From: Planoprotostelium fungivorum
Taxonomy: Eukaryota > Evosea > Variosea > Cavosteliida > Cavosteliaceae
Length of the DNA: 29,852 nt
Reading direction: 5' to 3'
Assembly: GCA_003024175.1 (NCBI GenBank)
Contig: MDYQ01000245.1
Location: forward strand, 1 to 29,852
In this document: piece after piece, positions 310 to 29,533 of the stretch
Layout of the letters: every line of letters begins with the position of its first letter
Numbering within the stretch: the first letter of the stretch is position 1
Program-made: the position numbers and the translations under genes
The notes under the pieces: model-generated
What the model was told of the DNA's origin: nothing
Database searches by the model: none
What the model saw: the letters and a program-made list of their open reading frames with translations, nothing else

Positions 310-3300
310 ATGAGAGCGAGTCAACTCTTTCTTGTGGCTGCGTTGTGTCTCACCGCTTGCTCTGCCTATGACCTTCCTGTTGGCTGTAATTTTACAAAGG
401 GACAGAGAGTCTTTGCAGGGCAGGATGCAGCCATCTACAGCTGCATTCAGGCTGTGAGTCTTCTATCATATTCGATAGATGAAGATCGTTCGGCTGACGA
501 GATGATCGACAGCCAACCATTAGCTCCGAGACGAAGAGCAAAGTGTTCAACACGACTCGTAATCTGTTGAGGAGCTATCCGTTCCGTGACATCCTCGCCG
601 AAGGACCCACAGCACCATTCTACGTATCTCAGTGAGTCTGCATATGCACTGCCGCAGGATCGAATCTAAATCATTACCAGGGTGGACATCGAGGCTGCCT
701 TTGAGTCCATCGCTTATTACAACACTCATAACTCCGACAGAGCTTTCTCATTCTACTCTCGTCTGAGCGATCTCATCGACCGACTGATGGATCCGAACGT
801 CAAGTTCAGATTGCCCGAGTGTTTCGACGTCACCTTCTACCATCCGTTGATCATCGCAAAGAAGGAAGGTAGTAGACCCAGCACCGGTTCGACCGGCAAC
901 CTCTACGTGAAAGACGTCCGAACTTGGCCTGAGTTCGGTAACGATACAGTCTTAGAGCAGGTACCCAGCGCTTCACAAAGTGTATGGTTGCTGATGAGAA
1001 ACAGATCAGGGGATTGAAAGGTAAGACCATCGAAAAGCTATCAGGCGGCACAGCTCTCGACCAATATTCTTACTCAGTTCTACCCTACTCCACCCCAGGT
1101 TTCACCCTTGGTGAGATGTCCATCTCATTCCATCAACCGATCTGATCGTGAGACAGACTCTAGCATCAACGGAATATTGACCATAGCCAAAAATCTCATC
1201 GACACTCGATCTCTCCGTGATGGTCATCCGTTCCCCACCAGCACATATCGACATCTCACCTTCACCATCGAGGGAAAGACGTACGAATTTCCATTCGTGG
1301 CTGAGATCAACGGTGATGATCGAGTGATGATCGGGTGGTGGACTCACTCGTGACAGGAAATCTGTCCGACTGTGATGCCCCTCACACGTCTGCGACGAAG
1401 CAAGTGACCGAACCTGTGTCACCTGTTCAGGTGACTCATCGTCTGTGTTGAAATGTTGATTCAGTTGCAGTTGAGAGAGGTGGATGATAACACGGTGGCT
1501 GTGGTACTCCCTCACCTTCAGAATGGAACGAACGCGGAGGTGATGAGACTGTTCGAAGAGAAGAACAAGACATACAAGAACGTCATCATAGACGTGATCG
1601 ACAACATGAAGGGATCCATCTGTGAAGCCCAGTATCTGTTGGACTATCTGGTGATCCTTCTACTTTCTCGTTTCATCTGTATCTGATCTAATTGTAGACC
1701 GGAGGATCTGACCCGATCTGGGAAGACATCGTGTATTCCAACTACACTCTACAGCTGATGAAGATGGCTGAGGCAACAAATGGTTCAGATGACGTGATGC
1801 TGGGTGATCACCTGTGGGAGACTGTAGATGGATCTTCCGTGTGGTCCGTGGAGCAGGTGAGAGATCTACAATACCATCGTAGATGACACGTGACGCAGTT
1901 GACGCGAGCGAATTCGACGAACAACTTTTCGACTCTGAGGAAGAGGAAGTGTGCACCGAGTCCCTGGATCAACCACAAACCATATTTCGAGAAGGTGACC
2001 CTCATCATGATGCGTCACTCATCACACCTTCAACGGATCACCTGACGAGTATACAGGTGTACGTCTTGTCGAACGGTCTGTGCATGTCTGCCTGTGCAGT
2101 ATTGACCGCGAAGCTGTCTTCTCACGGTGTCACCATCTTTTCTGAAAGGTCCACATACAGTGTCCTACGTTACGCGACTTCAGCGAGTGGTGAGTGCATC
2201 GATTGTATCGCACATCACACGCGAGAAATTGTGACAAAGAGGATAGGTATGGTGGTGACAGACGAAGAGATGTTCAGACAGGCAGAGCACTGGAATGCTA
2301 CAGGAGATGACGTTCCCGCCAGATGGCCCGTCACTGTGTCCATGGAAACGGTAGTGACCGAGGTAAGGAAGATCTGATGCGCTTTATTTCTGACCAGTAC
2401 AGTATTACAGTGAACAAGACAGGAGTCATCCGGACCAGTTCAAGTCATCGAACACGGGAAACTCCATCACATTCTCTCACGAGACAGACAAGGACACACT
2501 GTATCATCAACTCATAGAAAAATTTCCCTCCTACGAGCTTCCACAGAGGTGTCAGTTCAAGATGATGAAAGGCATCGCCATTACCTCCTTGGAACAGTAC
2601 AAGGAGTGTGTTGACATGGTGATGACGTCACGTTGATATCTGAGTGACGTTGATAGATACCACTGAGCGAGAAGAAGAAGAGGTTGGTGTTAGACAACGT
2701 GAAGAGAATGATGGACATGTATCCCTTCTCTGATCTGGCTAAGAATACACCTGATCAGTCACCACTGAGAAAGTTAGAGTGAGTGAAATGCGTAATAATG
2801 GTATCACACGTGACGATGAGATACAGTCATGACATCAACGCTGCGATCGAGAAGCTGAGGAGCAGAGCGAACGACAGCACGATCGGAGCCTTCTCTTTCT
2901 ATCAGAGCATCACGGATGATGTGACTGCTCCCCTGGCTGATGCTCACACTCAGTTCACCAAGCCAAGCTGTTTCAATAGCATCGTGGCTCAACCGTTCAA
3001 TCTGACAGCCGTGGGAGATTTTCCAGAGATCTATCTGAGAGAAGTATTCTTCGATGGTAAGATGGAGATGATACCCAAGGCTCCCTTCTGGAACACGACA
3101 GAGGTGATAGCGTGGGTCACATTTGGGACTGAAAAGAGTTCAGTTTAGGACTTACGTTGGCAAGAAGATTCTGAAGATCAACGGTGATGATGCTACGGAG
3201 CATCTGATCGACTTTGCCAGATCTCATCCAATCTATTCGAAAGGTGTGTCACTCCCGCCGTAAAATGATCAACGGTAACCCTCGCAGACGATTCGGTCAA

Positions 3301-5361
3301 CTTCAATCAGATCTTCAACATGGAGATGTTTACCATTCGAATGCTTCACTCGGGCGTAGCGGGTGGCTTCCCAGAGAATGTGACGTTGGAGATGGAAGAC
3401 CATAAGACATTCAGCTTTCCATGGTTGACAGTTGTTGCGGGTGAGTGTGTGGATGGAGGAGGAGACTGAAGAGTGCAGATGATCTGTCTCAGTGTGACCA
3501 GACGAGTGAATATACGAAGAAGAGAGAAGCTAGTTTGAATGGAGAAGAATCGAGAGTGTTCGCCATGAAGAAGAGACAAGAAGACTTCTTGCTAGGAGAC
3601 CAAAACGTACGTGGATAACGATGACGATATCCATACTGAGATGGTGATTGACAATGTCACAGGTGTCTGTGAAGGAGATGAACGATGACACTCTCGTCAT
3701 CAAGATACCCTCTTTTGGAGTCAAAGTCAATCAACAGCTGAATCAGACGCTACCACAGCACACGCACAAGAAATTGATCATCGATGTGTCTGGTAACGGT
3801 GGAGGTCTCGTCTGTGAGGCTATGGAGCTCATCCGCTACCTGGTGATTGAATCGTGATAGATCTCGTGACACTGATGTAATACAGGCAACCCCGCCCCCA
3901 CGCATGATATTCGATTTCAAATGGTCCAGCTTGACTTGGAGGATGCAGCAGAAGTCGATGAACATGACACCCGATACCTTCCTTTATTTCGGACCGGATC
4001 GTTACGAGTCAGTGGAGGGAGCCGACCATCCGTGGTGGACACCCATAAATGTGAGATGCACAAAGCCAAGTGGTAACAGGAAGACTGACGTCAAGCAGGT
4101 GACGCGTGCCAACTCGACATCTCTTCACTCGTCTCGCTTCTACCTCGAACGATCGTGTCTGGATTCCACTGATATATGGAACGGAACGAAGAGGAACTAC
4201 AATGAGGTTCGTTGAACGACCTCTTCCTCTCGCCATAATTGACATCCTTCAGATCCTCATCTTATCGGATGGTCTGTGTGGATCAGCTTGCGCCATGTTC
4301 ACGACGTTGATATCGACTCTGCACGATCACGTGAGAACAGTTGTGACGGGAGGAATACCAGGACAAGAGAAGATGAGCTATTCTACCTTCCCCGGAGGTG
4401 ATCGAGACGATGAGTTGGAGTCGCTAAAGTCGTCAGGTTTCATCACGAACGATATCAACATACAATCAGTCTCGAAATATTATCAGATGGAAGGAGAGGA
4501 TGTGTTACAGGCATGGCCCACAGATGTACACATGCAGATACCCTTTGTAGAGGTGAGGATGACGCTGCGAGGAGAATGAGGATTGATGTGTTACAGCTGT
4601 TCTTGTCGAAAGAACAAGAGTTGCCCGAAGAGTTCAGCTTCTACGCAGCTGACTACAGACTACCCCACTTGTACGACTGGAGAGACATAGACACCATCTA
4701 CAATGAGACACACGAGTTCTTTGGATGGATATCGACATCGACAACTGAGGTGAGGTGCATACTAGTGAACGAAGAGAATGACAGATGATAGGACGTCACG
4801 ATGACATTCGTGGGTGACATCACCCGTGCAGACCTTCCCAAGTTGATTGCAGCTGTGGTACAGACGGGAGTCGAGTCAGTGACCGTGAAGAGCTGGGAGA
4901 GTCAGAGTGTGGCTGGCAAGAGAGCGCAGAAGGTCAAGAGCGTCATCACGCTGAGCGATGGAAAGATGAAGGCAACGGAGGCGAAGAAGGCACTGATCGC
5001 AGCTGTGGTGCAGCAGAAGAGTGGGGGAGAAGACAAGTTTGCCGAGTCGGCTAAGACAAACAATTTGCCCAGCATCCTCGTTGCGTCTGTGGATGGCGAC
5101 ATAGATACTACTACCGAGACTACGATTCAGCCAAAGACAAGCACATCCGAAACAGCAACAAGCACATCTGAGCCGAAGACAAGCACAACCGAGCCAAGCT
5201 CAGATCAGAGTGGGCATGGAACACTTACGAAGCCACAAGTGGCTGGCATTGTCGTTGGATCCATTGCTGGAGTGGTCCTCATTGGAGTGGTTGTATTCCT
5301 GGTTGTGAGGTACAAGAGGAGACAGGGAGGAGCATACTACGCACTGACTCAGTACGAGTGA
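310..5361 (+). CDS. Type I membrane protein with two tandem S41 (CPAF-like) peptidase units
   Basis: This gene has many introns and reads as one protein. It starts at ATG 310 (context ACCACCATGA) with a signal peptide (MRASQLFLVAALCLTACSA). Two homologous units follow, at about 680-2340 and 2820-4560. Each has a 'YPF..' entry segment, an F-S-F-Y helix, a Cys-Phe strand, a PDZ-like part, an 'IIDV' strand and a 'GLC.SACA' serine motif, the order seen in fungal and CPAF-like S41 peptidases. Unit 2 keeps DAHTQF (histidine codon 2945-2947), IIDVSGNGGG and SDGLCGSACA. Unit 1 has DPNVKF and IIDVIDNMKG instead, so only its serine survives. A Thr/Ser-rich stalk (about 5100-5220) leads to one transmembrane helix (about 5236-5310), a KRR stop-transfer and a short tail. 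There is no second signal peptide and no anchor after unit 1, which argues for one gene. Exon joins are inferred; S41 membership is fairly sure, substrate unknown. Confidence 0.8.
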
Positions 5362-5778: not shown

Positions 5779-7686
5779 TTACGAAGGAATGATCACCTCC
5801 TGTTCCTCTTCCATGGGATACTCGTCCACCACCTTCTGAAATGAACCCCCTTCATCATTGAAATCTTTTCCTCTCTCCTCGAAGCCCACAGAGGCTATGA
5901 AGGAGATCGACAGGAAGACAACGAGCATGAATATGGCTTGCGTCTTTCCGTAATCGGCGATCATTTTGTCGTCCTTTCATGGGTTGAGTGGAATTTGTGA
6001 GGGTGACACACCTGTTCAGAATAGACGGGGAAGCTCTCTCCAATCTTGGCTTGGATCTGGGCGGATGCCGCTGATATCAGATTTCCTATCTGGTACACCA
6101 CTCCGGGGAATGTTCCTCGAAAGTTTCCTGGGCTGATCCTATACAACTGATGAGTAGAGAGAAGAGAGAATGAGAGAATGAGAGAAAAGAGAATGAGAGA
6201 AAAGAGAATGAGAGAAAAGAGAATGAGAGAAAAGAGAATGAGAGAAAAGAGAATGAGAGAAAAGAGAATGAGAGAAAAGAGAATGAGAAGGAATCAATGA
6301 CATACTCGTTGAGAAAGACAGGGACAACACCCCAAGCACCCTGAACGAAAAACTGTAAACCGAAAGCACCAAGGGCCATAGAGTAGCCCGGACCGTAGAC
6401 CCAGAGGGGCACGAACAACAGACCGCAGAGAGACGACACCACGATGGTTCTGTTCCTCATGAGAGAGAACGAAGAGACATCTCACCTCCTCCTCCCAAAG
6501 TACTGAGAGAAATATCCGATGATCGTTCCTCCTATGATGGCACCAAAGCTGGCCACGATGTTGGTCACTGACATTCTGACGGGGGAGTAGTGCATTTGGA
6601 TCTACAGAGGATCAGTTGAATCAAAGGAGGTGGATCACCCTGAGGAAAGTGGGATATAGATCCTGCGAGCCGTGCGACATGAAGTTGAAGCAGGCCATCA
6701 AGACGATACCGTACAACACTCTGGTCCATTCTGCCTTCAGCATGGCCCACAAGCTCTTCATGTAATCTCCTGCGCTCGTGGCTTTGTCCTTCTGTCTCTC
6801 GAATGTCTCTGACTCTGGTACAAAGAATCTACCCATCAGTCAGCACATTCTTACAGATGACAGAAGAACGTCAGATGAAGAGGGATGGAGGGAGTCACCT
6901 GAGGAAGAGAATGAGGAGAGCGGGAGAGGCACCGATGTAGAACAAGACTCTCCAAGAGATGTCCGGTTTGATCTCAAAGAGACAGAAGAGAACGAAGGAA
7001 GCCAAGAGGTGACCAGACGAATAGCCCTGCTGCAGGATGCCACTGAATATTCCTCTCGCTTCTGTCGGCAGAGACTCCATGGCAAGAGAGGCACCTAAAC
7101 CCCATTCACCTCCCTGAACATCCTCAGCTTCTTCATCTCACGAATCCATCGACATCGCACATCGCAACACGCGTAGCGATGGATGGATGATCATTCACCA
7201 TGGCAATACCAAAGACAGCACGTAGGGCGAAAAAGACAGTAAAGTTGGGAGCGAAACCAGTGAGAAACTCCATGAGAGAGTATAAGAAGATGTTACCCAT
7301 CAAAGGATATCTTCGTCCATAGCGATCTGCCAGTAATCTGTTGATTCACATCAGATGCGAGGATGTTACAAACTACACACCCGAAGATGATGGCACCCAC
7401 AGGTCGTAGCATGAGAGTGACTGTGATGGCACTGGCGATTTTGGCTGGCCCTAAGCCAAACTCTTGTGCGATCTGAGGTACCGTGAGAACTACCGTGAAG
7501 AAATCGAAAGCATCCAGGGCCCATCCGAGGAAGGCTGACAAGTTCTTAGTGCTTCACATCGAGAAGGAACGCACCGGCTGTGAATGTGAGTCGCTGAGTG
7601 GCATTTAGATTGACGATCAGTCTCCAAGGGTTCTTCATTGGTTCTATGGGTTCACTCATGAATCCACACCATCTTCGGAACACCAT
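5779..7686 (-). CDS. MFS carboxylate/sialate-type transporter (Jen1/SHS family)
   Basis: A proton-coupled carboxylate transporter of the sialate:H+ symporter/Jen1 branch is the likely product, about 470 residues, at a membrane. After an N-terminal cytosolic segment, the exons give family signatures in order: GWALDAFDFF in TM1, MLRPVGAIIFG, LADRYGRR in the 2-3 loop, GGEWGLGASLAMESLP, and GIFSGILQQGY in TM4-5. In the C-terminal half FGAIIGGTIIGYFSQYFGRR repeats the loop motif, and NEISPGNFRGTFPG is also typical of Jen1-like proteins. The tail is acidic. Clear introns include 7535-7574 and 6139-6305; the last is unusually long because of a tandem repeat. ATG 7686 is the first plausible start; the internal ATG nine codons on is an alternative. 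The gene is divergent from the small gene at 7811. Substrate cannot be read from sequence. Confidence 0.88.
6157..6291. repeat. 15-bp tandem repeat inside a transporter intron
   Basis: Seven perfect copies of agagaaaagagaatg fill 6181-6285, with degenerate copies on both sides. The array sits inside the intron 6139-6305 of the MFS gene. Because 15 is a multiple of three and the minus strand has no stop in two frames, it reads as an artificial Ser/Phe/Leu-rich open frame. Confidence 0.95.
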
Positions 7687-9592: not shown

Positions 9593-12296
9593 ATGATTGA
9601 TCAGTCGACCACGCACAGGTGACGCAGCTCACTCAGATTATACCACATTATGAAGAACTGCAATAAAGCGAATGCCAGAAGGATGCTGATGAACTTCCGC
9701 CGTCGAATACTACAGACCCATCGAATCATTCGATCTGTAAGCCCCTGGTTCAGCATGTCTTCCAACCATCATCTAATCAGACCGGTGCGTTGCCTGGTCA
9801 AAATTCATCGAATTTTCGATACGATAGTTATGAAACTGGTTGCAGCCGTGGTTGGTGCCGCCAGTGGAGCAGGTCTAAAGAAGTGTGTATAGAGGTATCC
9901 TTGTCGCCTCTATAGGACACCTGTGGTTCGTTGTATCAGGGGCCAATATTTAGTGCACCTGCGACATATTTTTCGGAAGACACTTGGGGTGATGAGCAAA
10001 TTGTTGAAGAAGATCAAAGAAAAGCGGAAAGAGTTATGGAAGAAAGAAGAAGGGGATCCTCTTTTGATATCAGAACCCTCCGATCTGAAGCAAGGAGTGC
10101 ACGTAGACAGAGAGTATCAATGGAGTGGACAGAACGCTTCAGATCAATTCGGTCTCATTGATATCATCGGCCAAGGGTGAGGAAATCATTTCTCCATCAT
10201 CACTGAGTCAGGGAAGATCGTTTGGAAAAGTGTATAAGGCGGTCCATCTATTGTCCAAGTCTACTTTTGCCGTGAAGATTTTCAACGAAGAATCAACCGA
10301 GGCATTAGAGGGTACAAAGAGGGAGATCGAGATATTGAAGAAGTGCCATCATCCGAATCTAGTATCTTACTGGGGTGCCGTAAATAATGAGAACTCCATC
10401 TGGGTAGGATCACGTCACTTGGTCACAACGGCTGGTGTTGATCATCTGCAGATCGTCATGGACTATTGTCAAGCAGGATCAGTAGACGATGTGATGAATG
10501 GATGCAACGACGTATTTTCAGGTGATTTTCAGACGTGAACGCATGAATGACAGTCGATAGACAAAGAGGTGAATGAGAATAAAAATCGGTCGTGTGATCG
10601 ATGAGCAGGTGAGATACATCTCCTTCTTCACTCTCAAGGGTCTCCGTTATCTGCATCACCAAGGGGTCATCCACAGGTGAGACCTCGCGTGAATCAACTG
10701 ACGGGGACAGAGACATCAAGTGTGCCAACATCCTGTTGACTTACGAGGGAGAAGTGAAGATCGCGGATTTTGGAGTGTCCAAGCAGTTGGATGACTCTGG
10801 TAAATGCAGTACTCTGACTGGAAGGTGAGAGGCCTGAAAGGGGAAGAATGGAACTGAAGGATTGCAGCCCTTATTGGATGGGTGAGCTGAGAGAGAGACG
10901 AGGAGTGACGAGTGATAGCACCCGAGGTGTTGATCATCCGTGGAAGAGAGTATTCCTACAAAGCTGACGTGTGGAGTTTGGGAGTCACGTGTATCGAGAT
11001 GAGCACTGGTGTTCCTCCTCAGAGTGGTGCCACACCTGCACAAGCTGTGATCCTTTCCTTCTCATTTCCAGGTGCTGACCAATGCAGATGAGACGTATCC
11101 CCATGCAGGCTGCACCGAAGCTCCCACAAAAGTGAGATTGTGAGGAGAAGAGGGAATGAAAGAGAACAGGACAGATGGAACACAATGGAATGAGAATTAC
11201 ATCGACTTCCTCACAAAGTGTTTGGAGAAGGATCCAAAGAACAGAATGGATGCACAAGAGATATTGAACGTGAGCCATCATGGTGTATCATGACTGACAT
11301 CAGAGAGCACTCCTTCTTCGCTGAGGTCAAATTGCCTCGTAGCCTTCTGACAAAGATAGAGAGGTCAGACCACAAGGTGCGTGTGATGAACAGAGGAGAG
11401 CATGACTGTTGTAGAGAGCAAAGAAGAAGAGGAAGATGATGGAAAAGAGACGAGAGGAGGGAGAGGGAAAACGGGAAGAAAAGAGAGAGGAGAGAGAGAA
11501 GAGAGAGGAGGAGAGAGAAGAGAGAGAAGAATCGAAGGGCACCATCGTGATATCCTCCAATTCCGGGACAGTAGTGCAGAGTTCTTCTTCACTCAGCGGA
11601 ACAGTCATCGATCATTCCGGAACATTCGTCGACACATCGAACGATCCCTCAGGCACATTTGTACATCACTCTGAGGAATCTCAAGATTCAGGAACTTTTG
11701 TTCACAAATCAGAAAACAGTGGCACATTCATCGATAGATCAGAAGAGAGCAGTGGAACATTCATCAACAGATCAGAGGAGAACAGTGGAACATTCATCGA
11801 TAGATCACAGAACAGTGGAACATCCATCCAATCCGATACGAGTCAAGCGAGAACACCCAAGAAGAGCACATACAGATCGATTCAATTCACCCAAGGTGAG
11901 AGGAAGGAACGAAGGAGAGACATTCAACTCGAACAGAAGGTGGTTCTCTCTCTGATCTGCGGAGAGAAGCGATGGATGTCAACACGATACCGTATGATGA
12001 AAGCTCCGTCCTCATCGAGAAGGGGACAACGTACGGCACGATCATCGAGGAAGAAGAACCAGAAGAGAAGGAAGAGAAGGAAGAGAAGGAAGAGACACGA
12101 ATCGACATACGAGTCGAAAACGGTGTGCCTTCATCAAAAAGGAGAACGAACAAAACTGAACGCGCCAGATGCACCGATTGCCGCACAAAACGAGGAAAAC
12201 TTGTTCTGGTCTCTAGCAAATGTTATCGCAACCGTGATGGGTGTTCTATCGGCAACAGTGGCTGCCTTCTTTGTGGGTCGTCGAATGTGGATGTAA
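9593..12296 (+). CDS. STE20/MST-like Ser/Thr kinase with Gly-Thr repeat linker and C-terminal membrane anchor
   Basis: The model has about 700 residues over many exons. A low-complexity N-terminus leads through a 40-nt intron (10103-10142) into FGLIDIIGQGSFGKVYKA. The kinase core is intact: TFAVKIF lysine, WIVMDYCQAGSV hinge, VIHRDIKCANILLT catalytic loop, KIADFGVSK, GSPYWMAPEVL, YKADVWSLGVTCIEM, and a C-lobe end. IVMDYCQAGSV and HRDIKCANILL point to the STE20 germinal-centre/MST branch. After it come an Arg/Glu-rich run (about 11436-11535), ten GT[IVFS]-type repeats, one more GTII near 12035, and a 26-residue hydrophobic stretch (NLFWSLANVIATVMGV onward) ending RRMWM, as in a tail-anchored protein. 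The last introns are 41 and 46 nt. Start ATG 9593 rests on a less usual AAG acceptor and is uncertain; the kinase and tail are firm. Confidence 0.85.
11536..11835 (+). repeat. Coding SGT[F/V/I] repeat array in the kinase linker
   Basis: Ten GT motifs occur in about 100 residues (KGTIV, SGTVV, SGTVI, then SGTFV and SGTFI copies, SGTSI). The last part (about 11725-11830) repeats at DNA level in units near 33 bp around cagtggaacattcatc, suggesting recent expansion. Confidence 0.85.
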
Positions 12297-12326
12297 TACA
12301 AGATGGTTGTTTGTGTCTTCACGTCT

Positions 12327-12332
12327 TTTATT
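12327..12332 (-). promoter_or_regulatory. AATAAA overlapping the Brr2 stop codon
   Basis: On the minus strand the end reads GAA TAA AAG, so the stop codon is inside AATAAA. The kinase stop on the other strand ends at 12296, leaving 31 nt between the two genes. Confidence 0.6.
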
Positions 12333-15300
12333 CTTCCATGGCATCCTCCACGGTGAGTGAGATGTCCAACTCTTGGTCACAACCCGAGTAGCTGTCGCAC
12401 ATCACGTACATCTTCAGGTCGTAGTTTCCTCCTTCCTCGGGTGCCGTGAAGTCGAGTTGAACGGACTTGTCCTTGTCCACGGTGATACGCTTGATGCACA
12501 GTAGAGTGTTGTTCTTTGGGTCTCCCACCAAGAGCCACCACTCCTCCGTCTTTTCCTTGGGGAAGAAGGGTGCGATCACGGGGCTCAGTGTCTCTCCCTC
12601 AATCTCTCTCTTCAGGTTCACCGACACGCTGACTGTCTCTCCCGCCTTGATGGCCTTGTGGGATACCTCCATGTCCACTTCGATGTCGGGGTATCGGTTG
12701 CAGTACCTTCTCTGGTCAGGTGAATCCCCTCTCTCCTCTCACCTGATGATGTCCTGGACTTTCTTGTCGTCGTTGGGCAGCAGCTTCTTCCTGACATCAT
12801 CCTCCATCTCCACAATGTCGAAGATGGTGTTCACATCCATCGACTTGGCCAGCTCGATGAGCTCTGCAGTGAAGTGAGGCACCTGACGCAGGGGAGAGTC
12901 ATCGTTCCACACGGCCTGTGTGATCATCTGGGACAGCTCCATCACTGCCAGGGCAGGGGAAAGCCAACTGGAGGAAGAGATGACATCGACCATGGCCTGA
13001 CACAGCTTCACGGCCTGTCCCACGATGACGTGGTTGTCTGACTCCAGCTCTGGGGTGAGTCTCTTTCGAGAGAAGTGACACTGGAGGAGAACGTTGACCT
13101 TGGTGAGGATGGAGTGCCACGATGGCTTCTCGATCTTCATGGGAAGGTGTCTGCCAAACTCTGAGATGATCTTGTCCTCTCCCTGTCTCATCGGAATCGT
13201 AGAGTACTCGCTGGCACTGCACAAGATCTCGATGATACCTGTCTATGTCAGTCTCTTCCTTCTCTCTCTCTCACCTCTCAGCTTCGTCTTGGACTTGAGA
13301 GAGGAGTTGAAGAGCTCCACGGTGGTGTAGGAGAGGTTGTAGAAGGATGCGATGAGACCCAAGTTGAGGGGCTTGACGTTCATCTCGTCCTCGATGGAGA
13401 TCAACTTGGACTCTGCCAGTTGACCCAGTGTGTTCTCCACCATCTCTGACAGGTGGTCTGATATGTGCACTGTGGTCGATCCCTGTTCCTCTCTGTCAGA
13501 AGAGGAGGATAGAGAGGAGAATGGACAAGTGAGAGGAGAGAGGAGAATGGACAAGTGAGAGGATAGAGGAGAAGAGAGAGGAAGTGGAAGAGCCTCACCT
13601 GAAGGTTGTAGTAGTTGGGGTTCAAGAAGAGACGACGGAACATGAAGGACCAAGTGAGATAGTCCACAGCCTCCTGCTTGTCCTCGATGGTCTTGGCCAC
13701 GATCTCAGCGTTCATGGTATCTGCGATGAAGTGATCCAGGTGGGACTCCACGGGAAGGGGCTCATGCAAGAACTTCTTGTAGTACTCCTTCTTCGGTCCG
13801 AATGTGTAAATCACACACTTGCCCAGCTCTTCACCCACTCCACGACATCTGTCATCTTCAGTCCCTCTCCCTCTCCTTCTCTCACCTTCCGCTCATCTGC
13901 AGGACATCGGTGATGCTGTAGTCGGTGTATCTGTGCTCAGCTCCATCGTAGTACTGTGTTCCCATGATGATCACACAGTGTGCTGTGAAGTTGATCTGCA
14001 GATCTAAGTCGTGGATAGAGATGTATGTTCAGAGATGGATCGATGTTTGGAGATGGATGTTCACCTCCCAGCAGAGATCAAAGACAGCGACAAGGATCTG
14101 TACAGCGCCAGACTTGAACAGCTCAGCTGCAATCTGCTTCTCCTTCTCTCGGAGAGAATCGTGGTAGATGGAGATTCCACTCAAGAGAGATTGCTTGAGA
14201 GCATCACTGGTGATGTGGTCCAAGTGGGGTTGTAAGTCCTCCTGGGGTACCTGCCATCCTCAGCTTCCTCTTCTCTCTCTCTCACCTTCAGGAATCTTCT
14301 GGTGGGGGTGTCGTTGTCCACGTACTTGATGAGATCCTTCACGATGGACCTCATCGACTTCCTGTTGGGTACAAAGATGATCACGGGGTGACCCGCTCCC
14401 GAGCTGGAGACAGCGTACAGCGTTGGTCTGGACATAGCCATGACACGGGATCCAAAATGGGTCATATCGAATCCTAATGACATGAGTATATTCTATTCAA
14501 TGATGTAGATGGAATTCATCAGAGTGAGGAGATCACCTTGAATGTGGATCTCCATGGGAGAGGGACGAGTGTTGGGGTGGAAGTTGAACGTGGAGGCAGC
14601 GGGGATGTTCAACCAGTCGGCCAGATCTTTTGCGTTAGCCACGGAAGAAGAGAGGGCCACGATACGTGTCTCGTGCTTGGTCTGTCTGGAGATGTATCTC
14701 GTTCTGGAACACACAACCTGTCGAACGATCAGCCCACGTGGATGTGGATGATGGTGGACTCACCTCCAATACGGGACCATTGTTACCTCCGATGAGGTGG
14801 AGATCATCGATGATGATGAGGTCGATGTTCTGTACATTCTTTCGGCTCTTCCACCTCCTGGACATGAGATCCCAGTTCTCTGGTGTGGACAGAATAAAGT
14901 TCCCAGCGATCAGCTTCACGTCCATGGCTGAGTCTCCGGTCAGCTTCTCGGGTCTGGCCTGGAGTTGAGGCAGCTTGCTGAATTTGGCCCTCCAGTCGGC
15001 CAGCTTCTCGTTGATGACGGCGGCGACGGGAGAGATGTAGAGGACCTTTCCGTTGGGCTTCTTCTCAAAGAGTCTGAGGATGGCAAACTCTGCACACACC
15101 GTCTTCCCTGATCCTGTGGGGCAAGCGACGAGGACGTTGTTGTCCGAGTTGTAGAGGGACTGGTAGACTTGGGTCTGTATGGCGTTGAACTGACGGATGG
15201 GGGAGAAGAGGGTGGGGGCAGAGGGGCTCTTGATGTCAGTGATGAGGAGGGGCTTCAGATCGAGGAGGTCCGTGTGGGGATGGAACTTGCTGGGGAGGTG

Positions 15301-18300
15301 AATGTTGCGGAAGGACAGGGGGAGGCTGGTCTCCGATCCGATCCATCGATCAGAGACGATGGTGATGTAGTACTGAGGGTGGAGGGGCTCGAACAGGGGC
15401 ACAGTGAAGGTCACAGTGTGCTCTTCATCGGCAAACTTTCTCTTCAGTACAAAGAACTCGTGGTGGAGGATCTTCTCGTTGTCGACGTCCTTCACCAAGA
15501 TCCAGAAGGCCTCGGCGTTACCGTGAACCTTCTCGTCAAATTGGAAGTCGGGAGTGATGACGAGCTCGATCTTGAGGGTCGATCGAGTGATGGGCTGGAA
15601 GTGAGCGGTGACCTCCAACTTGGGGAACTGGTGTACCAGCTTGTGGATGTTCTTTCCCTGCTGGGGAAAGTTGATGAGGTCTCCGATCTGCTGGGAGTTG
15701 AGGTCGTAGAGGCGATCCATGGGGAAGTCCTTTCGTTCGATCTTCTTGATGATCTCGTCGGGGACATCCTTGAACTGCCTGAGGGGGGACTGTGTGGGCC
15801 AGATCCTCTTGTCCACCATCTTGCACATGTTCAGAGCCCTCTCAGCCACTTGGGCCCATCCTCTCTTGAGGACCATCTCGTACAGAGAGCGGAACAGACG
15901 AGCAGCCGACTGAGTGACGTAGACCATGTCGGAGATGAGAGCGAAACCCTCCAGCCTGAGACGAGAGATGTAGGCCTGCAGGAGGACGTTCACCTTGGCT
16001 GTGGGCTCCTCCATGGATTCCTTCACGGGAATGGGTACACGGTCGAGGAGCTTCTCAAGTTCTTCCTTCTCTTCCTCTCGGACGGTGATGTACTTGAACT
16101 CGGTGGAGAGGGAGAAGATGCGCAGGAGATCGATCTCGGTGGTGGAGGGCTTGAGGTGGTCGTTGTAGATGTTCATGGAGTTGTATCCCACGTAGTAGTG
16201 AGACGCCACTTGACCCAGATCGGTGACTTGGAAGGATCCCGACTTGCGATCGTATCGAATGAGGTTGGCCTTGTCCAAGATGATGGCAGCAGAGTGGATG
16301 AGGTCCCTCCTTCTCTTGATCAGAGTGGGATCCTCTTCTGCCTCGTCGAGGGAGATGGAGTAGAGCTGAGGGTTTCTGAGCATGCACACGTAGAGGTAGG
16401 TGTAGGACAACCACGTGATGGCCTGCTCCACGCTCTGTACGGTTCCCAGGACGATCTCGGCGTTGAGGTTATCAGCGAGCTTGCTGATGTACTGCGACTC
16501 GATGGGCAGCTGTTGGTTCAGGAGGGAGAGGTAGTACTGCAGCTCGTGGTGGGTGGTGATGATGATACCCTCTCCAGAGGTGTCGTACTGAGGTCTGCCG
16601 GCTCTTCCGAGCATCTGCATGACGTCCATGTAAGACAGTTCGACCCAGGAGCTCTTCTCGGGGGAGTAGATCTGAGTACCCTTGATGATGACTGTGTGGG
16701 CAGGGAGGTTGACACCCCACGCTAAGGTTGCCGTGGAGACGAGGACTTGGATATGACCATCAGCGAAGAGATCCTCCACCATGGTACGGTCCGCCCTCTG
16801 AAGTCCGGCGTGATGGATTCCGAAACCGTAGGGAAGGATGTCCTTCAAGTCGGAATTCTTGATGGAAGCGGCTTCGTCTTGCAGGACGGCAGTGGAGAGG
16901 GAGCCCTCCTTCAGAAACTTGTTGAGGGTGTCCTTCTGCAGTGCAGTGTCCCTCAGGGCCCTGGCCGTCTTGGCCGTCTCTTTCCTCGAGTGGACAAAGA
17001 TCAAGATCTGGTTGACACCTGCCTGCTCCATGACTTTCTCGTAGGTGATGTCGTTCATGACTTGCATCCTCTTGATGGCCTTCTTCTCGGTGACTCCGAT
17101 GTATTTCTGCTCCAGGGGCACTGGTCTGTAATCGTTGGTGAAGGCAAAGAGTCCGCTCTCCTTGACTCGAAGGAAGGTGGCGACATCCCTGTAGTTGGGA
17201 AGGGTGGCTGAGAGTCCCACCAGACGGATGTTCTCTGCGGTGGCCTCCACTTGGCGGAGGGTTCTGGCCACGATGGACTCTAACACGGGACCTCTCATGT
17301 CGTGGAGGAGATGAATCTCATCGATGATGATCAGCTTCACCAGCTGGGTGAAGGTTCTGTCTCCAGCCTTTCGTGTGATAATATCCCACTTCTCGGGGGT
17401 GGTGACGATGATCTGGGTCTCTCGGATCTGCTCCTTGGACAGATTCACATCTCCTGTCAACTCCTTGACGTTGATGGAATAGCCCTCCAGTCTCTTCTGG
17501 AAGTTTCCGACGATCTCCTGAACGAGGGCCTTCATGGGGGCAACGTATACAATCTTCAGGTTGTCCAAGTGCCCTTCCTTGTCCAGCAGCACTCCAATCT
17601 CACGCAGGATGCACAGCATGGCCACGTTGGTCTTTCCTGATCCAGTGGGGGCGCAGAGGAGGAGGTTCTCGTATCCATTGAATGCGGCCTTGAATAGACG
17701 ACTCTGCACTCGGTTTAGCTGGGTGACCCCCACGAAACCCTTCTGTGCCCAGTCGGGGAGACTCGAGATGGAGACCAGGTGCTCTCCCTCCTGCATGGGT
17801 GGTTTGGCAGGCTTGGGAATGTGTACCTCTTCGAATCCCTTCATGGTCTTACGGAACGAGCCTGGGGGTAAGTTGACGGTGCGGTTGGGCATCAAGTGGG
17901 AGCCCTGAGAGAAGGCGATCTCCTCCAAGTTGAGCAGGGTGCCCTTGTTGTCTGCCGCTTCCGTTCCACCTGCCTTCATCTTGATGGCCCTCGCCTCTCT
18001 CTTCATCTGCTTCAGTGCCGAAGATCGATCGGCTCCGGTGAAATCCTCCAAGATGACTCGCAGCTGTGGCTCAGCCTTCATCTCCTCTTCCACAGCCGTT
18101 CTCTCCTCTTCGTTTTCGGCGTGGTTGAGTTTGGTACAGTAGATGATCTTCAGTCGATTGTGAAGCAGAACCTGTCCTCGTTACTTTGCGTCTCTTCCTC
18201 CCTCTCACCTTGATGAAATCGAATTTTTCAAAGCCCAAGAGTTGTACGAGCTCGTTTTCACTGTGTCTCTCGTCTGTGGACTCTAAAATCTTGAGTACCT

Positions 18301-19223
18301 CTCCAGACAGTCTCTGTGACTCCACGGGGTCAGGATCGACCAGCTCTGAGATCTTTCCCTTGAGCCAGAAGGCACGAATGTCTTTCGCATCGATGGCGAG
18401 AGGGTCCTCCACGTCCATGTCATCCTCTCCGTCGTTGATTTGGACTCGACTCTCGGTGATACCCTCCTCGTCTCCTTCATCTTCAGATTCTTCTTTGATC
18501 TCATCGGGTTCTTCCTCCTCGTCCTCGTCGAAGATGACAGCCACACCCATCTCTTCATCGACACGCCCCGACTCTTCTCCTTCTGCATCATCTCTCCAGT
18601 CTGTGATCCTACGTCCCAGCTCGGACAGCTCTGTGAACACTTCCTGTGTCACTCCTCCGATCAGGGAGTTAATCTCGTTCTTCTTGTCTGGTGCCTTCAT
18701 TCGATCGTCCTTGAGCGTCGCAATGACCTATGGGAGTGAATACAAAACAACTCTGTGGCAACTGTACCTCAAGGGCTGCGTCTCTTAATACACTTTGTGG
18801 TTGGTCTCCCAGACCATCTCGGCAGATGGTCAAAATCTTGGCGTATGCCGCACGGGTCTCCTTTGTCTTCGGTTGCCAGCCTGATTCTCCCACCTATTTT
18901 TTTCAGATTTCCAAGCTCAGGTTGTAAATTACCTCGTATTCCACCGTCCCTGTCGTCTTCCGTTTCTTTAGTGAGGGTGCGCCGCTAGGTGCTGTGTCTT
19001 TCTTCTTCTTCTGTTGAGCCTTCTTCATTCTCTCCTTCAACTCTTCATCTGAACGGACTCTGGCCTTGTCTCCCATGCGAGACCCAGTTAATTTACCGGC
19101 TAGAGAGTGAACTTCTCCTGTTGCCCCATCGTTCTCTCTTGGTCCTCTCTCTGTTTGTTGCAGGACGAGATTGGAGTTGGCTTTATAGTCAAACAGCTTC
19201 GAGCGGGCTGATTTTTCAGACAT
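12328..19223 (-). CDS. SNRNP200/BRR2: Spliceosomal helicase Brr2 (U5 snRNP 200 kDa subunit)
   Basis: Brr2 unwinds U4/U6 during spliceosome activation. Twelve exons join to about 2113 residues (human about 2136): 19223-18933, 18893-18768, 18727-18209, 18171-14764, 14717-14537, 14473-14286, 14250-14065, 13995-13886, 13848-13599, 13482-13275, 13238-12743 and 12706-12328. The frame closes across all of them. The N-terminus has [11 protein letters not shown] and GSRMGDKAR, then a PWI-like segment. Cassette 1 has [40 protein letters not shown] and [11 protein letters not shown], followed by a Sec63 region. Cassette 2 has [10 protein letters not shown] but DDLH for motif II and QMSGRCRG for motif VI, fitting the known inactive-like second cassette. 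A second Sec63 region ends the protein. The stop lies within AATAAA. Start ATG 19223 begins the conserved N-terminus. Confidence 0.97.
13483..13598. repeat. Purine-rich Brr2 intron with a duplicated 21-mer
   Basis: This 116-nt intron between the ninth and tenth Brr2 exons is longer than its neighbours. It contains two copies of gagaatggacaagtgagagg near 13518 and 13541 within a GA-rich run. Confidence 0.7.
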
Positions 19224-19438: not shown

Positions 19439-21108
19439 TTATTCAAAGCGAACGCTGAGGGTGATGGCGGCGGAGGAGAGAAGTGGGTCCGTGATGTCCA
19501 GAGTATCACCTGATTGGAATAACTCGTTCAGTTTCTTGCTCAAGTTGGGTGTAGTTGCCTCGAGCAGTGCCTTGGGTGCTTGCATGAATACATTCTTGTT
19601 GTTGCATCGGATGGAGGGTTTCTTCAGTTGACTGACTCACTTAGCTACCTTTCACAAGGAGTACTCACTAGTTGACATCTCCGCCCAGCATTTCGATGAA
19701 CTCTTCGAGCTTGATGTCACCTGACACAGAATAGACAGATTGGGACGTACCACAGACGAGACAGTTCTCCTTCTTCTCGTATTCAAAGGTGTGAGTGTAG
19801 ATCCCCTCCCCTCCTATGTACATCATGTAATTGTTCAGCACATCCGCCGCATTTGTCACGATCTTGAGGGCCTCTGTGACTTCGGAGGCTGTGGGTGAGG
19901 TGAGATAGAGATGATGTAGAGATATGTGAGATAGAGATGATGTAGAGATATGTGAGATGAGATGATGTAGAGATATGACTGACCTGCGATGATGGCATTG
20001 GTGGATGCGATGGCAGGGATGATGTTCTTGACCACACCCTGAGTCAACCTGTAAGTGACTCCCTTGATATTGAACTCTTCCGCTCTCTTCGATGCCGTCT
20101 CGAACATCCACTTCATGTGATCCGTGTTGTCCGCGTCAAACTTGGTCTCTGTACACGTCAATGGATGAGTAGAGATGTATATGATGTAGATGCATGTAGA
20201 TGTAGAGATGATGTAGAGATGATGTAGATGAATCTAGATGTAAGGATGATGATGCAGAAGAGAGTGATGTCACCTTTCCACACTTTGGGCCATTCCAAGA
20301 TGTGTGCCCACTCTATACAATGTTCAGGGAGTCTGGGGGTGTTGGCCAAGGTGCAGATGGGATAGTTGACTTGAGGAGGGAAAGCCTCGAGAGAACATTC
20401 GAAGCAGGAGGTGAAGCCCGGGTAGATGACTCTCGACTGACCCTTGAAACCCTCAGTTCCTCCATCGATGAACGGAATGACGCTGTCTGGGTCGATGTTT
20501 CCCTCATCGTCATAGACGAGCATGTTGACGAGTGTTGAATTGATCCAACGACGAGCTGGAATGGAGTCCAATCCAGCGATGATGATCTTGAATTGTCTGT
20601 AGTATTCCTCTCCTTTGTCTTCGATTCGTCCAAAATATCTGGAGAGATCAGGGAGTGTTAAAGTGGAAAGATACTCACGGGACAACGTTGACACCCGGGA
20701 AGCGCTTGTTGATGAATGTTGCGGCTGTAACAGCCTTTGGCTTCCCGACATCGTCTTTTCTTTCAAGTACAATCAGTGATCATCAATCATTTTCGCACAA
20801 ACCTAAAAAGGAATTGGCGATTGAGGTTGGAATAGTCGATAGTGTCCATATCAATCACTTCGATGTTTCTAAATCCGGAGTACGCGAGGTTCTTCAAGAG
20901 TTCACAACCGAGACCACCTGCACCGATGACTAATACTTTCCATGTTTCTACGAGGTTTTTCTTATGCTATTTGGGGTCAAAGGGGCCACATAGATGACTA
21001 AATTACCTCCTCTAAATTGGCACTAAAGTCTTCCGTAGCGAATGGTCCAGGCCTTCCTAATAATTTTCCAAGATGATGCCATTTACCATCTTCCACTTGT
21101 GTTGCCAT
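19439..21108 (-). CDS. UBA3: NEDD8-activating enzyme E1 catalytic subunit UBA3
   Basis: UBA3 pairs with NAE1/AXR1 to adenylate NEDD8, form a thioester with it and pass it to UBC12. Exons give [15 protein letters not shown], then the nucleotide-binding [17 protein letters not shown] and [28 protein letters not shown] and [15 protein letters not shown] follow. The catalytic cysteine lies in [18 protein letters not shown]. Two CxxC pairs (TSCFEC and NCLVC) match the family zinc site. [20 protein letters not shown] leads on to a C-terminal ubiquitin-fold part that binds the E2. ATG 21108 starts the conserved region; only a non-ATG extension exists upstream. The stop TAA sits inside AATAAA (19438-19443). 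Two introns carry tandem repeats. The gene is divergent from the scramblase gene with 119 bp between starts. Confidence 0.95.
19900..19976. repeat. 26-bp tandem repeat in a UBA3 intron
   Basis: Two identical 26-bp units at 19900-19925 and 19926-19951 are followed by a third with one base missing (19952-19976). Each contains gatgatgtagagatat. The array lies within the intron before the [16 protein letters not shown] exon. Confidence 0.9.
20165..20245. repeat. Imperfect gatgtaga repeat in a second UBA3 intron
   Basis: This degenerate array of gatgtagagat/gatgtagat units lies in the intron between the EWPKVWK and ETKFDADN exons. Its core matches that of the array at 19900-19976 in another intron of the same gene. 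Confidence 0.8.
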
Positions 21109-23665: not shown

Positions 23666-25074
23666 ATGCTGAGGACCATCAATGCGGTCCCTCACCGGGG
23701 AATGGTTCACCACAGACCCATTGTGTCTACTCCAAGAAGATCATATGCCACTTTGAACACCCAGCCCTTGAGAACTGTCGATCCAATGGAGGGAAGAGAT
23801 AAAACCCCAACGAGGGTTGACCGAGAAGTCTATATGAGTGCCAAGTGAACTTTTCTTCCTCCTCGATCTCGGTTGACTGGAAACGTTAGGTACTTCTTGG
23901 AGAATAGTAAAGAGATGAGAATCACACCTAAGCGCGAAGTGATCACAACTCGCACCAACATATCCGATGAGGTATTTCAGATTACGTTACTCTAGATGAC
24001 AATCCTTTAGACGCTGGTTAGGGGACGAAAGGCTCAACTCTACAAGTCACCTATGGAACCACATATTCCAGTCCTGCAGACTAATGTAGCTAAAAGTTTG
24101 AGCAAAACCAAACTGCGTGAGATGTGAGCATCACATGACCATTCTCACACAGCTAGATCTCAATTTTCAACTGCCAGATGTGCATGTCATGAATAGAAAG
24201 ACATTGGAGCTCGAGAATGGATCAATCATCTACGTATGTCTCCACTACTGTTGCACTCATGTTCTGATCGTAGAACAGTATGCGCAAGCGAGAGGCACAC
24301 GTAAGACTGCAGCCGCTCTGGCGTCCATCAAGCCCGGAAACGGCTTATTCACTGTGAACGGAAGACCCATGAACGAATATTTCAGGCGGTACAGTTCTCG
24401 AGAGATGGTTCTAGAGCCCTTTTTAATCACTCGCACTCTTTGTGAGTTTGACATTGCCATCAAAGTGATGGGTGGAGGTCTGACAGGTGAGACGAGCTCT
24501 TCCTTTCATTCTATCGATATCACCCCTCTCATTCTGTCCATCTCATTCCATCAGGACAAGCTGGTGCCATCCAACTGGCCGTGGCTAGAGCTCTGCAGAA
24601 CTGGGAGCCCGAGCATAGAGGACAATTGAGAATAGGTATTGACTCTAACACACAAGCATTTCACAAATCAGAACATGATATATCAAACACTGAACATGAT
24701 ATACCAAACACTGAATTTGAGACGTCAANNCATTCTGTCCATCTCATTCCATCAGGACAAGCTGGTGCCATCCAACTGGCCGTGGCTAGAGCTCTGCAGA
24801 ACTGGGAGCCCGAGCATAGAGGACAATTGAGAATAGGTACTGACTCTAACACACAAGCATTTCACAAATCAGAACATGATATATCAAACACTGAACATGA
24901 TATACCAAACACTGAGCATGATATACCAAACACTGAATTTGAGACGTCAACCTTGAAGACATGGGCATTGACGATGGAACAGCGGGAATGTTAACTCGCG
25001 ATCCCCGTCAAGTGGAGAGGAAGAAGTATGGACAGAAGAAAGCCAGAAAGAAGTTCCAATGGGTCAAGAGATAA
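23666..25074 (+). CDS. MRPS9: Mitochondrial small-subunit ribosomal protein uS9m
   Basis: uS9 sits in the head of the small ribosomal subunit with its basic tail reaching the P site. The first exon ([17 protein letters not shown], then [11 protein letters not shown]) is a good mitochondrial presequence with an RRSYA-like cleavage region. A linker over three exons follows. The conserved domain reads [44 protein letters not shown], then [14 protein letters not shown] after an intron, and after another intron [20 protein letters not shown] ending VKR, the universal uS9 C-terminus. The penultimate exon occurs twice (near 24555 and 24756) on either side of an 'nn' gap. Only one copy fits a normal uS9, so the duplication is probably an assembly error. 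MAT1 ends 83 nt away on the other strand. Confidence 0.93.
24530..24950. repeat. Near-identical direct duplication flanking a gap
   Basis: The segment 24530-24728 recurs as 24731-24950. The copies differ by one base (ggtattgac versus ggtactgac) and by one extra unit of a 21-bp tandem repeat (gaacatgatataccaaacact), two units in the first copy and three in the second. Each copy carries one full uS9m exon. Confidence 0.95.
24729..24730. other. Assembly gap (two undetermined bases)
   Basis: The window's only ambiguous bases lie exactly between the two copies of the duplicated segment, as expected where two overlapping contig ends were placed side by side instead of merged. Confidence 0.95.
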
Positions 25075-27671: not shown

Positions 27672-29154
27672 TTATTCTGAATCCACAACATGGACTGGGA
27701 ATGTGATCTTCAATGGCTCAGTAGCTTTTCCAAATACACATTTGACAACCAATTGAAATTCTCGCGCGTAAGGTCCAGAGATCTCAGTGAGTGAGGTTCG
27801 TATCGGCACAGTGAATTCAGCAAGTGGAATCTCCACCTCTCCGTGCGCCTGAGAGTGTTAATCACACATCTCAGCGCTGCCATTCACCAGAGGAAATTGA
27901 TTGTTGGTGCCAAAGTATTCCCTCCTTCCAAACTTGTTCTCCTTGGTCTTCACCTTCCTCTCCACACCATATCCTAACTTGGTCTGTGATCCCATGAGGT
28001 CTTTGGCGTGACTGACACTCATAACCAGATAGGCCGTTACGTTCTTGATGGTCTTGGAGGAGCGATTCTCTACAAGAATGGAATATCGAATGGTCTCTCC
28101 CGGTGTGAAGTTCTTCTTCGGTAGCTTCACTCTCATGTAAGCGTACTCGTCAGAAAGCATAAATGTCTTTGTCGCTTCCTTATCCAATCCTGTGTATCTT
28201 GAGCATACAGATTTCTCACTCTCTCACCTCTCGTAGCCTCGAAACACTTGATGTGGTACTTCTTGTCCTCAGCCACTTTGTAGGAAGAGAGGCCATCGAT
28301 TACTTGATTGCACACCACGCAGGCGTTCACATTCGATATGAGTCCCATCCTCCTGCGTATCCCTTCAGCCTGTTGGGTGTATTTTCCAATTGCCTCTATT
28401 AGCCTCTGTTTCATCAGGTAATCTGGCTCCTCTGATCGAATCTCTTCAGCACTTGATAGATCTTCATCTCACCTTCTAACGCTCTTTGGAGGTAGTCGAT
28501 TGCAAGGTTATAGTACCGATATGCATTATCGTACCGACCTGCTTGGTCCTCTTCTGTTGCCTTCTTGGCTAGCTCTGCAGCAGCGGAATACGCTCTTCAC
28601 CATTAAGATCAAAAAAGTGTCAATTCTCAGAAAAAGGATACTCTTCCCTGGACATCAGGTATGGGGGACGTAATTGAGATAATGAAGAGGATCGATTCAT
28701 AACATGCTGAGATGTTGTGGGTGTCATTTGCGGTGGACCTTGGCTATTGTTTTGTGGGTTCACGCCAACACCAAACGTGTTCATCTTTGGTTGCATTAAT
28801 AACTTGCAGCTCTGATTAACCCACAGAAGGAAGAGTTGCGACACCCGATTGTGCGACTTTGTTGATGTTATTCCTTTTCCTCATCTGCTCTTGCAGTACA
28901 TCGTTTCTGGATTTATATTCGCTCAACTTCTGTGTAATGAGCGTTTTTCTTGAGGATTCCCTTTCCACTGGTATATATAAGCCTTTTTTGGTGTTATTCT
29001 CACCCATAAAGGCGCGTTCAAGATTGATGATTCCCTGCTGGTAGTAATAACAAGCAGTTTCAAAATCTCCCTGTGTGTCAAATTGAACTGCTTGTGTCAC
29101 GAGCGAGAGAGCTTCAGTCAATGAATCCATGATCGCCAGTGGATGTTGTCTCAT
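27672..29154 (-). CDS. Arrestin-fold protein with two MIT domains and half a LIM zinc finger
   Basis: Exons read from 29154 or 29130 downward. MIT domain 1 is ALSLVTQAVQFDTQGDFETA, YYYQQGIINLERA and LITQKLSEYKSRNDVLQEQM. A Gln/Pro/Thr-rich linker follows (about 28660-28800). MIT domain 2 is AYSAAAELAKKATEEDQAGR, YRYYNLAIDYLQRAL and LMKQRLIEAIGKYTQQAEGI. A zinc module CVVC-X18-HIKC matches the first half of a LIM domain; the second half is absent. The arrestin fold is AYMRVKLPKKNFTPGETIRY, ILVENRSSKTIKNVTAYL, REYFGTNNQFPL, then after a 40-nt intron VEIPLAEFTVPIRTSLTEIS and a final strand. MIT domains usually bind ESCRT-III tails, and arrestin-fold proteins act as cargo adaptors, so an endosomal sorting role is inferred. 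The stop lies in AATAAA. The linker intron is uncertain. Confidence 0.8.
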
Positions 29155-29533
29155 CCAAAGCGCCGCCAAACCTCGAGTTTTCACAAATGTAGACTTTGAT
29201 AGAATTTGACAGCCCAGTCGTCACCAATGTGAAACTCGAATAGAACCGACCAGTTGCGCGCGGAATTCCGCAGTTCCTTCTTTTGAACTGGTGGCGGCGC
29301 ATTGTAGTAAAAGGGAATATTATAATAGCGGATTTCTCTACAACTCACCTCGCTCTGAATGCTCGCCTCCTGTGTTCTGTTTGGTAATCCTCAAGCGTTT
29401 GCGCGCTCTGCACTCGCTTTATGCAGTCTGTGTGGAAATCTATACACTCAAATCATACAAAAGACACAAGGAGGCAAAAGGCAGGCGCACATGAATAGGC
29501 TGAGATCAATTTATTTGAGGCTCACGAGGCCGT
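29155..29533. other. Intergenic region; no gene seen
   Basis: This lies between the arrestin start and the end of the next minus-strand gene. An AATAAA (minus strand, 29510-29515) about 20 nt past the partial gene's stop fits its poly(A) signal. The rest should hold the arrestin promoter. The short open frames on both strands show no recognisable motif. Confidence 0.5.

Follow-up and report, generated by a model that had tools for sequence, protein, structure and literature searches.

Peptidases of the S41 kind that resemble chlamydial CPAF carry a catalytic triad of His, Ser and Glu, and bacterial tail-specific proteases (Prc/CtpA) use a Ser-Lys dyad. CPAF itself is a homodimer (PMC10208482), and its zymogen is silenced by a segment that sits within the active-site groove and abuts the PDZ domain (PMC4734761). 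Among fungi, AvrStb9 of Zymoseptoria tritici is a secreted S41 protein of 727 aa with eight cysteines, for which CPAF is the closest solved structure, and it has been described as having two serine-protease domains over positions 70-726 (PMC10208482); judging by their length, we read these as probably one unit of the kind reported below. In the chytrid Batrachochytrium, S41 families have been reported to be enriched or to have expanded (PMC5364385, PMC3744429). A non-catalytic use of the fold is found in vertebrate RBP3/IRBP, with four tandem S41-like modules of about 300 aa each that have lost the catalytic residues, bind retinoids and fatty acids, and have CPAF among their DALI neighbours; in the porcine protein, five of the seven cysteines were modelled, with no disulfides among them (PMC11750400). 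Here we describe a gene from Planoprotostelium fungivorum (contig MDYQ01000245.1, positions 1 to 29,852, the whole stretch being referred to as the window) which is predicted to encode two CPAF-like S41 units, one degenerate and one with intact motifs, on a single membrane-anchored chain.

A preliminary description of this locus had proposed one chain running from a signal peptide to a transmembrane (TM) segment and carrying two S41/CPAF-like units. This proposal holds in the gene model presented here (Table 1), in which the spliced frame is continuous, with a sole, terminal stop codon that ends at 5361, and the two units are homologous. End-to-end alignment of unit 1 (566 aa) with unit 2 (606 aa) gave 24% identity over 622 aligned columns, with a score of 134 bits (E=1e-37); when unit 1 was shuffled 500 times, the highest score was 26.6 bits. 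Eight cysteine columns are common to both units, in addition to one further cysteine in unit 2 and two in unit 1. As the units are only 24% identical, the pair is not an assembly duplicate.

When the ten introns of unit 1 were compared with the nine of unit 2, seven pairs were found at the same column and in the same phase, and an eighth pair shared its phase within three columns. A further pair lies one column apart in a different phase; nothing in unit 2 corresponds to the intron of unit 1 at 1857-1898. Not one of 200,000 random intron placements matched the observed agreement. Homology together with matched intron positions and phases points to an internal duplication that took place after the introns existed, and the position of the joint inside exon 11 indicates that the copies were fused in frame.

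The gene model was produced by a codon-usage dynamic programme, whose starting codon table was seeded with exons chosen by eye, followed by hand correction, in which the choice of splice sites was guided by frame continuity and by sight of the other unit. The uncorrected automatic model was rejected for its several doubtful introns. Fourteen of the 20 final introns are the same as in the last automatic round, and six were set by hand, two of these having been present in the first round. The last automatic round already had the exact intron pairs at columns 30, 70 and 260 and the near pair at 303/305, and both donors of the exact pair at column 580. All 20 introns of the final model are GT..AG and measure 37-62 nt; 16 start with GTG, three with GTA and one with GTT, and 16 end in CAG and four in TAG.

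The catalytic elements of the two units were compared under 20 alignment settings, which were combinations of matrix and gap cost. In all 20, His693 of unit 2 was paired with Asn127 of unit 1, GNGGG with DNMKG, Ser1051 with Ser449 and Glu1152 with Gln552. The earlier claim that unit 1 is degenerate (DPN and DNMKG) but keeps its serine was thus reproduced throughout, and the DAH, GNGGG and SAC serine motifs that had been reported as intact in unit 2 can be read in the sequence. The positions given then for DPN, for IDNMKG (1597-1614), for the serine of unit 1 and for DAH were all confirmed. To that description we add a third, possibly catalytic difference, the Gln552 of unit 1 in place of Glu1152, the latter being a putative catalytic acid by its likeness to the C-terminal P-x-E-F region of the family. 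By itself, the missing His can be expected to inactivate the site of unit 1, since the CPAF H105A mutant is reported to be defective in proteolysis (PMC12011302). The blocks AFSFY, TRANST and LS-GLC-SACA are retained in unit 1.

Profile searches separated the two units as well. Unit 2 passes the threshold of Peptidase_S41 (PF03572; 31.3 bits, cut-off 24) over profile positions 2-58 of 165, and it matches PDZ_CPAF_rel (PF23658) over positions 32-118 of 120 with 25.4 bits (E 1.5e-5; cut-off 27). Unit 1 did not match PF03572, PF23658 or any NCBIfam family within an E limit of 1, and it is linked to the family solely through its homology to unit 2. Of the His, GNGGG and Ser that mark CPAF-like members, it keeps Ser449 and has lost the other two. 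On these grounds unit 2 is probably a working serine protease close to the membrane, and unit 1 probably a pseudoprotease of the same fold, distal to the membrane and unable to cleave.

The chain has the layout of a type I membrane protein, with a luminal or extracellular part that would contain both units; this layout belongs to an overall explanation which we hold with about even confidence. The N-terminal signal-like stretch reaches a hydropathy of 1.82 at aa 6 (19-residue window), and the start ATG at 310 has a good context, ACCACCATGA. A second ATG in frame, at position 151, would add 53 residues (151-309), but a start there is disfavoured because the signal peptide would be buried. There is a single TM segment in the chain, with hydropathy up to 3.0 in windows spanning aa 1338-1367. 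Of the 21 N-glycosylation sequons in the protein, the most C-terminal is at aa 1176, a distribution that fits the luminal or extracellular part. The small domain in front of the stalk was predicted as helix-strand-strand-helix, the leading strand being very short, in two models (mean pLDDT 50.4 and 52.5), and no PDB relative with E better than 2 was found for it (aa 1192-1294). In these low-confidence models its order of elements resembles that of SEA-like domains, an identity that we do not claim. For the last exon, Pfam gave 13 matches, among them RIFIN, DAP10 and podoplanin; all were below cut-off and were rejected, being in keeping with the TM segment and the Ser/Thr-rich composition.

Judging by its short tail, the protein may reside in an endosomal or phagosomal membrane or at the cell surface. 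The tail holds a YxxPhi-like YYAL, and an endosomal, phagosomal or digestive-vacuole membrane is for this reason as likely as the cell surface.

The explanation that we favour, at roughly an even chance, is that a complete CPAF-like S41 unit was duplicated in tandem, leaving an active protease in unit 2 and, in unit 1, a pseudoprotease serving it in cis. The complete unit would have been duplicated inside one gene, and unit 1 would then have lost the His, along with the larger part of GNGGG, while retaining fold and cleft. RBP3 provides a precedent for S41-like modules that bind ligands after losing catalysis (PMC11750400). On the same chain, an inactive twin might take over from the dimer partner, cover the groove or offer substrate. 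In view of the description of mature CPAF as a homodimer (PMC10208482), we propose that unit 1 may stand in for the homodimer partner within the chain, giving a pseudo-dimer with one active site, in which the ligand-binding cleft of unit 1 would gate or feed unit 2; this form is the one favoured here, by analogy. A bolder version is tentative and rather doubtful: the homodimer mate would have become part of the protease's own chain, where it would now sense a ligand or present substrate, and a membrane protease from a family that is otherwise ordinary would be switched by whatever the dead twin binds.

Several points weigh against this explanation. The PDZ_CPAF_rel score of unit 2 stays under the Pfam cut-off, and unit 2 is far under the cut-offs of all four NCBIfam families that it matched. 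As its S41 match spans only the first part of the profile, the catalytic serine is placed by motif, and the PDB searches yielded no alignment with a solved structure of the CPAF-like kind. The intron comparison carries some bias, since splice sites were partly set by hand. The pseudo-dimer and its ligand-binding cleft are proposed by analogy, and activity, cis role and location are all derived from genomic sequence. Finally, no relatives were found in the collections searched (see below), and unit 1 may be a conserved pseudoenzyme or may merely be drifting. The tandem protein itself is well supported at the sequence level; the role of unit 1 is what we infer from it.

Drift is accordingly one of the readings to be weighed: unit 1 may be a relaxed copy that has no selected role and is kept by its place between the signal peptide and unit 2. 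We consider this unlikely. Unit 1 does stand further from the family, having neither the Pfam S41 nor the NCBIfam match that unit 2 has, but its frame is intact over 566 aa and ten introns, and the shared cysteines and the three blocks named above are retained; fold constraint alone could account for all of these. It is likewise improbable, in our estimate, that neither unit is a protease and that the product is a membrane-bound ligand carrier or receptor, similar to a two-module RBP3/IRBP, in which the motifs of unit 2 are ancestral. The precedent is real, in that the tandem modules of RBP3 lost catalysis, bind retinoids or fatty acids and have structural affinity to CPAF (PMC11750400). However, unit 2 retains His, GNGGG and Ser jointly and passes the Pfam S41 threshold, and drift would be expected to erode these, as seen in unit 1. 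Moreover, the RBP3 modules as described are about half as long, and their modelled cysteines form no disulfides; the present units measure 566 and 606 aa and have eight cysteines in common.

A catalytic unit 1 with rearranged residues, for instance another histidine reaching Ser449, is very improbable. Ser449 is retained and unit 1 has 15 histidines, among them His142, 15 residues past Asn127, but with DNMKG and Gln552 changed as well, three of the four elements would need replacing. Least probable of all, and to be given very little weight, is that the locus encodes two genes instead of one protein, or that errors of assembly or splicing have entered the model. The model comes from the genomic sequence alone, with six of its 20 introns differing from the last automatic round, and a probable scaffold join with Ns is present elsewhere in the window. 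Two separate genes are nevertheless disfavoured: the joint falls within one open exon (2403-2618), unit 2 is not preceded by a signal-like stretch and unit 1 is not followed by a TM segment, so that neither half combines the two. There is no AATAAA on the plus strand inside the gene, a weak argument either way because the nearest downstream copy is as far as 8039. A promoter and terminator scan of the joint found none, with bacterial patterns that are uninformative for a eukaryote.

No relatives of the S41 protein were found across prokaryotic, viral, plasmid and phage collections. Searches of genome contigs gave 18 matches with the two-unit alignment (by two patterns, each taken from the early portion of the unit) and 115 with the serine-region peptide, none of which was confirmed; 90 matches in viral contigs and nine obtained with the C-terminal domain included no relative. 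The plasmid collection had no match, and the phage collection returned one record at chance level (E 0.6). Unit 2 had no match in PHROGs, where a tally over the two members likewise gave no family. Sequence searches of the PDB with unit 1 and with unit 2 found no S41 chain, and the matches of unit 2 to T4 lysozyme were taken as chance.

Table 1. Coordinates of the features of the S41 gene and of neighbouring gene fragments in the window.
Feature	Residues (aa)	Position	Strand	Basis or remark
Whole gene	1380 aa	310..5361	+	21 exons, 20 introns
Signal peptide	1-19	310..366	+	Sequence and hydropathy; cleavage between ACSA and YD or nearby is a guess
Unit 1, degenerate S41/CPAF-like	20-585	367..2537	+	Homology to unit 2
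DPN of unit 1 (aligned with DAH of unit 2; Asn127 at the His position)	125-127	790..798	+	20/20 alignment settings
DNMKG of unit 1 (aligned with GNGGG of unit 2)	337-341	1600..1614	+	20/20 alignment settings
CMSAC of unit 1, Ser449 (2087-2089) and flanking cysteines kept	447-451	2081..2095	+	Alignment
Exon 11, fusion joint (unit 1 passes into unit 2)		2403..2618	+	One open exon, no stop between
Unit 2, S41/CPAF-like with intact motifs	586-1191	2538..4749	+	PF03572 score; PF23658 score sub-threshold
DAH of unit 2, His693	691-693	2939..2947	+	Sequence
GNGGG of unit 2	917-921	3792..3806	+	Sequence
CGSAC of unit 2, Ser1051 (4283-4285)	1049-1053	4277..4291	+	Sequence
Glu1152 in LPEEF, candidate third catalytic residue	1152	4630..4632	+	Alignment; codon place from exon 20
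Small membrane-proximal domain (about 100 residues)	1192-1294	4792..5100	+	Low-confidence predicted models
Ser/Thr-rich stalk		5104..5223	+	55% S/T across aa 1296-1335
Transmembrane helix	about 1339-1363	5233..5307	+	Hydropathy; helix in predicted model
Cytoplasmic tail, RYKRRQGGAYYALTQYE	17 residues	5308..5358	+	Sequence; contains YxxPhi-like YYAL
Protein kinase fragment		10125-10535	+	
ThiF-type E1-like protein fragment		20161-20772	-	
MIT-domain protein fragment		28819-29184	-	

The window looks eukaryotic, with genes interrupted by short introns and a Brr2-like spliceosomal helicase as neighbour. The gene of this helicase (U5 snRNP 200 kDa) lies at about 12300-18700 on the minus strand and has DEAD, Sec63 and PWI domains; its 1152-aa open frame scored 1817.7 bits with human Brr2 and 1221.3 bits with yeast Brr2. 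A stretch of 201 bases is repeated in tandem, almost perfectly, at 24530-24915 in the region of a ribosomal protein S9/S16 gene, and because two Ns (24729-24730) stand between the copies this is probably the overlap of a scaffold join, not a biological duplication. A GA-rich tandem array with a 15-base repeat is located at 6158-6288 (8.7 copies, 97% matching), near minus-strand frames that by eye have the look of a membrane transporter; one of these fragments, 7296-7553, has no Pfam match. AATAAA occurs 16 times in the whole window and is commoner than in shuffled sequence (mean 6.35, maximum 15 in 100 shuffles), as if it were a signal somewhere in the window, though not just after the S41 gene. 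No tRNA was found in the window, and no Rfam family at gathering score.

Compared with described systems, unit 2 resembles chlamydial CPAF in its S41 core with a putative, sub-threshold CPAF-like PDZ; its match to the chlamydial CPAF equivalog NF033424 (E 0.014) reached 14.1 bits, below the cut-off of 250, and unit 1 had no match. CPAF is a homodimer that arises from a zymogen, as the sources cited above describe it, whereas the present protein would have two different units on one anchored chain. With bacterial tail-specific proteases unit 2 has the GNGGG region in common. Its TIGR00225 match (E 1.6e-5) has 24.2 bits, below the cut-off of 218.6, and a profile of both units matched tail-specific protease chains in the PDB weakly (best E 0.071), this being its best S41 match.

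The fungal S41/CPAF-like peptidases (Panther PTHR37049), including AvrStb9, share with the present protein a signal peptide, the S41 assignment, eight cysteines and, for unit 2 at a sub-threshold PF23658 score, affinity to CPAF. Compared by description only, AvrStb9 differs in having about the size of one unit, and the portion of its published account used here mentions neither a membrane anchor nor a degenerate partner. RBP3/IRBP is similar in its tandem S41-like modules, its lost catalytic residues and an extracellular location that the present protein may share, and differs, as far as the consulted description goes, in lacking both a membrane anchor and a protease unit with intact motifs. 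No RBP3 chain was found in the PDB at E up to 10 with unit 1, which had no match of any kind, nor among the matches listed for unit 2 (nine) or for the two-unit profile (six).

The preliminary description had called such a two-unit anchored form unfamiliar to its author. In part this stands, as no two-unit anchored S41 protein is described in the titles and abstract openings among the matches listed in the open-licence PMC literature; in part it has to be narrowed, as tandem S41-like modules that are catalytically dead are known from RBP3 (PMC11750400).

To our knowledge, regulation by a catalytically dead twin has been studied mostly between separate proteins. One chain with an intact and a degenerate S41 unit would make the effect of the dead unit directly testable, by comparing unit 2 with and without unit 1. 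As an intermediate, the protein might also link S41 proteases to the non-catalytic modules that RBP3 carries in tandem. If the bolder version above is true, it would correspond, within S41, to the pseudoprotease regulators that exist as separate proteins, and would stand midway between a secreted S41 protease and an RBP3-like carrier. Tandem S41-like modules that lack catalytic residues are already known from RBP3, and what appears to be new here, as read from the sequence, is the combination of a degenerate and an intact unit on a membrane anchor.

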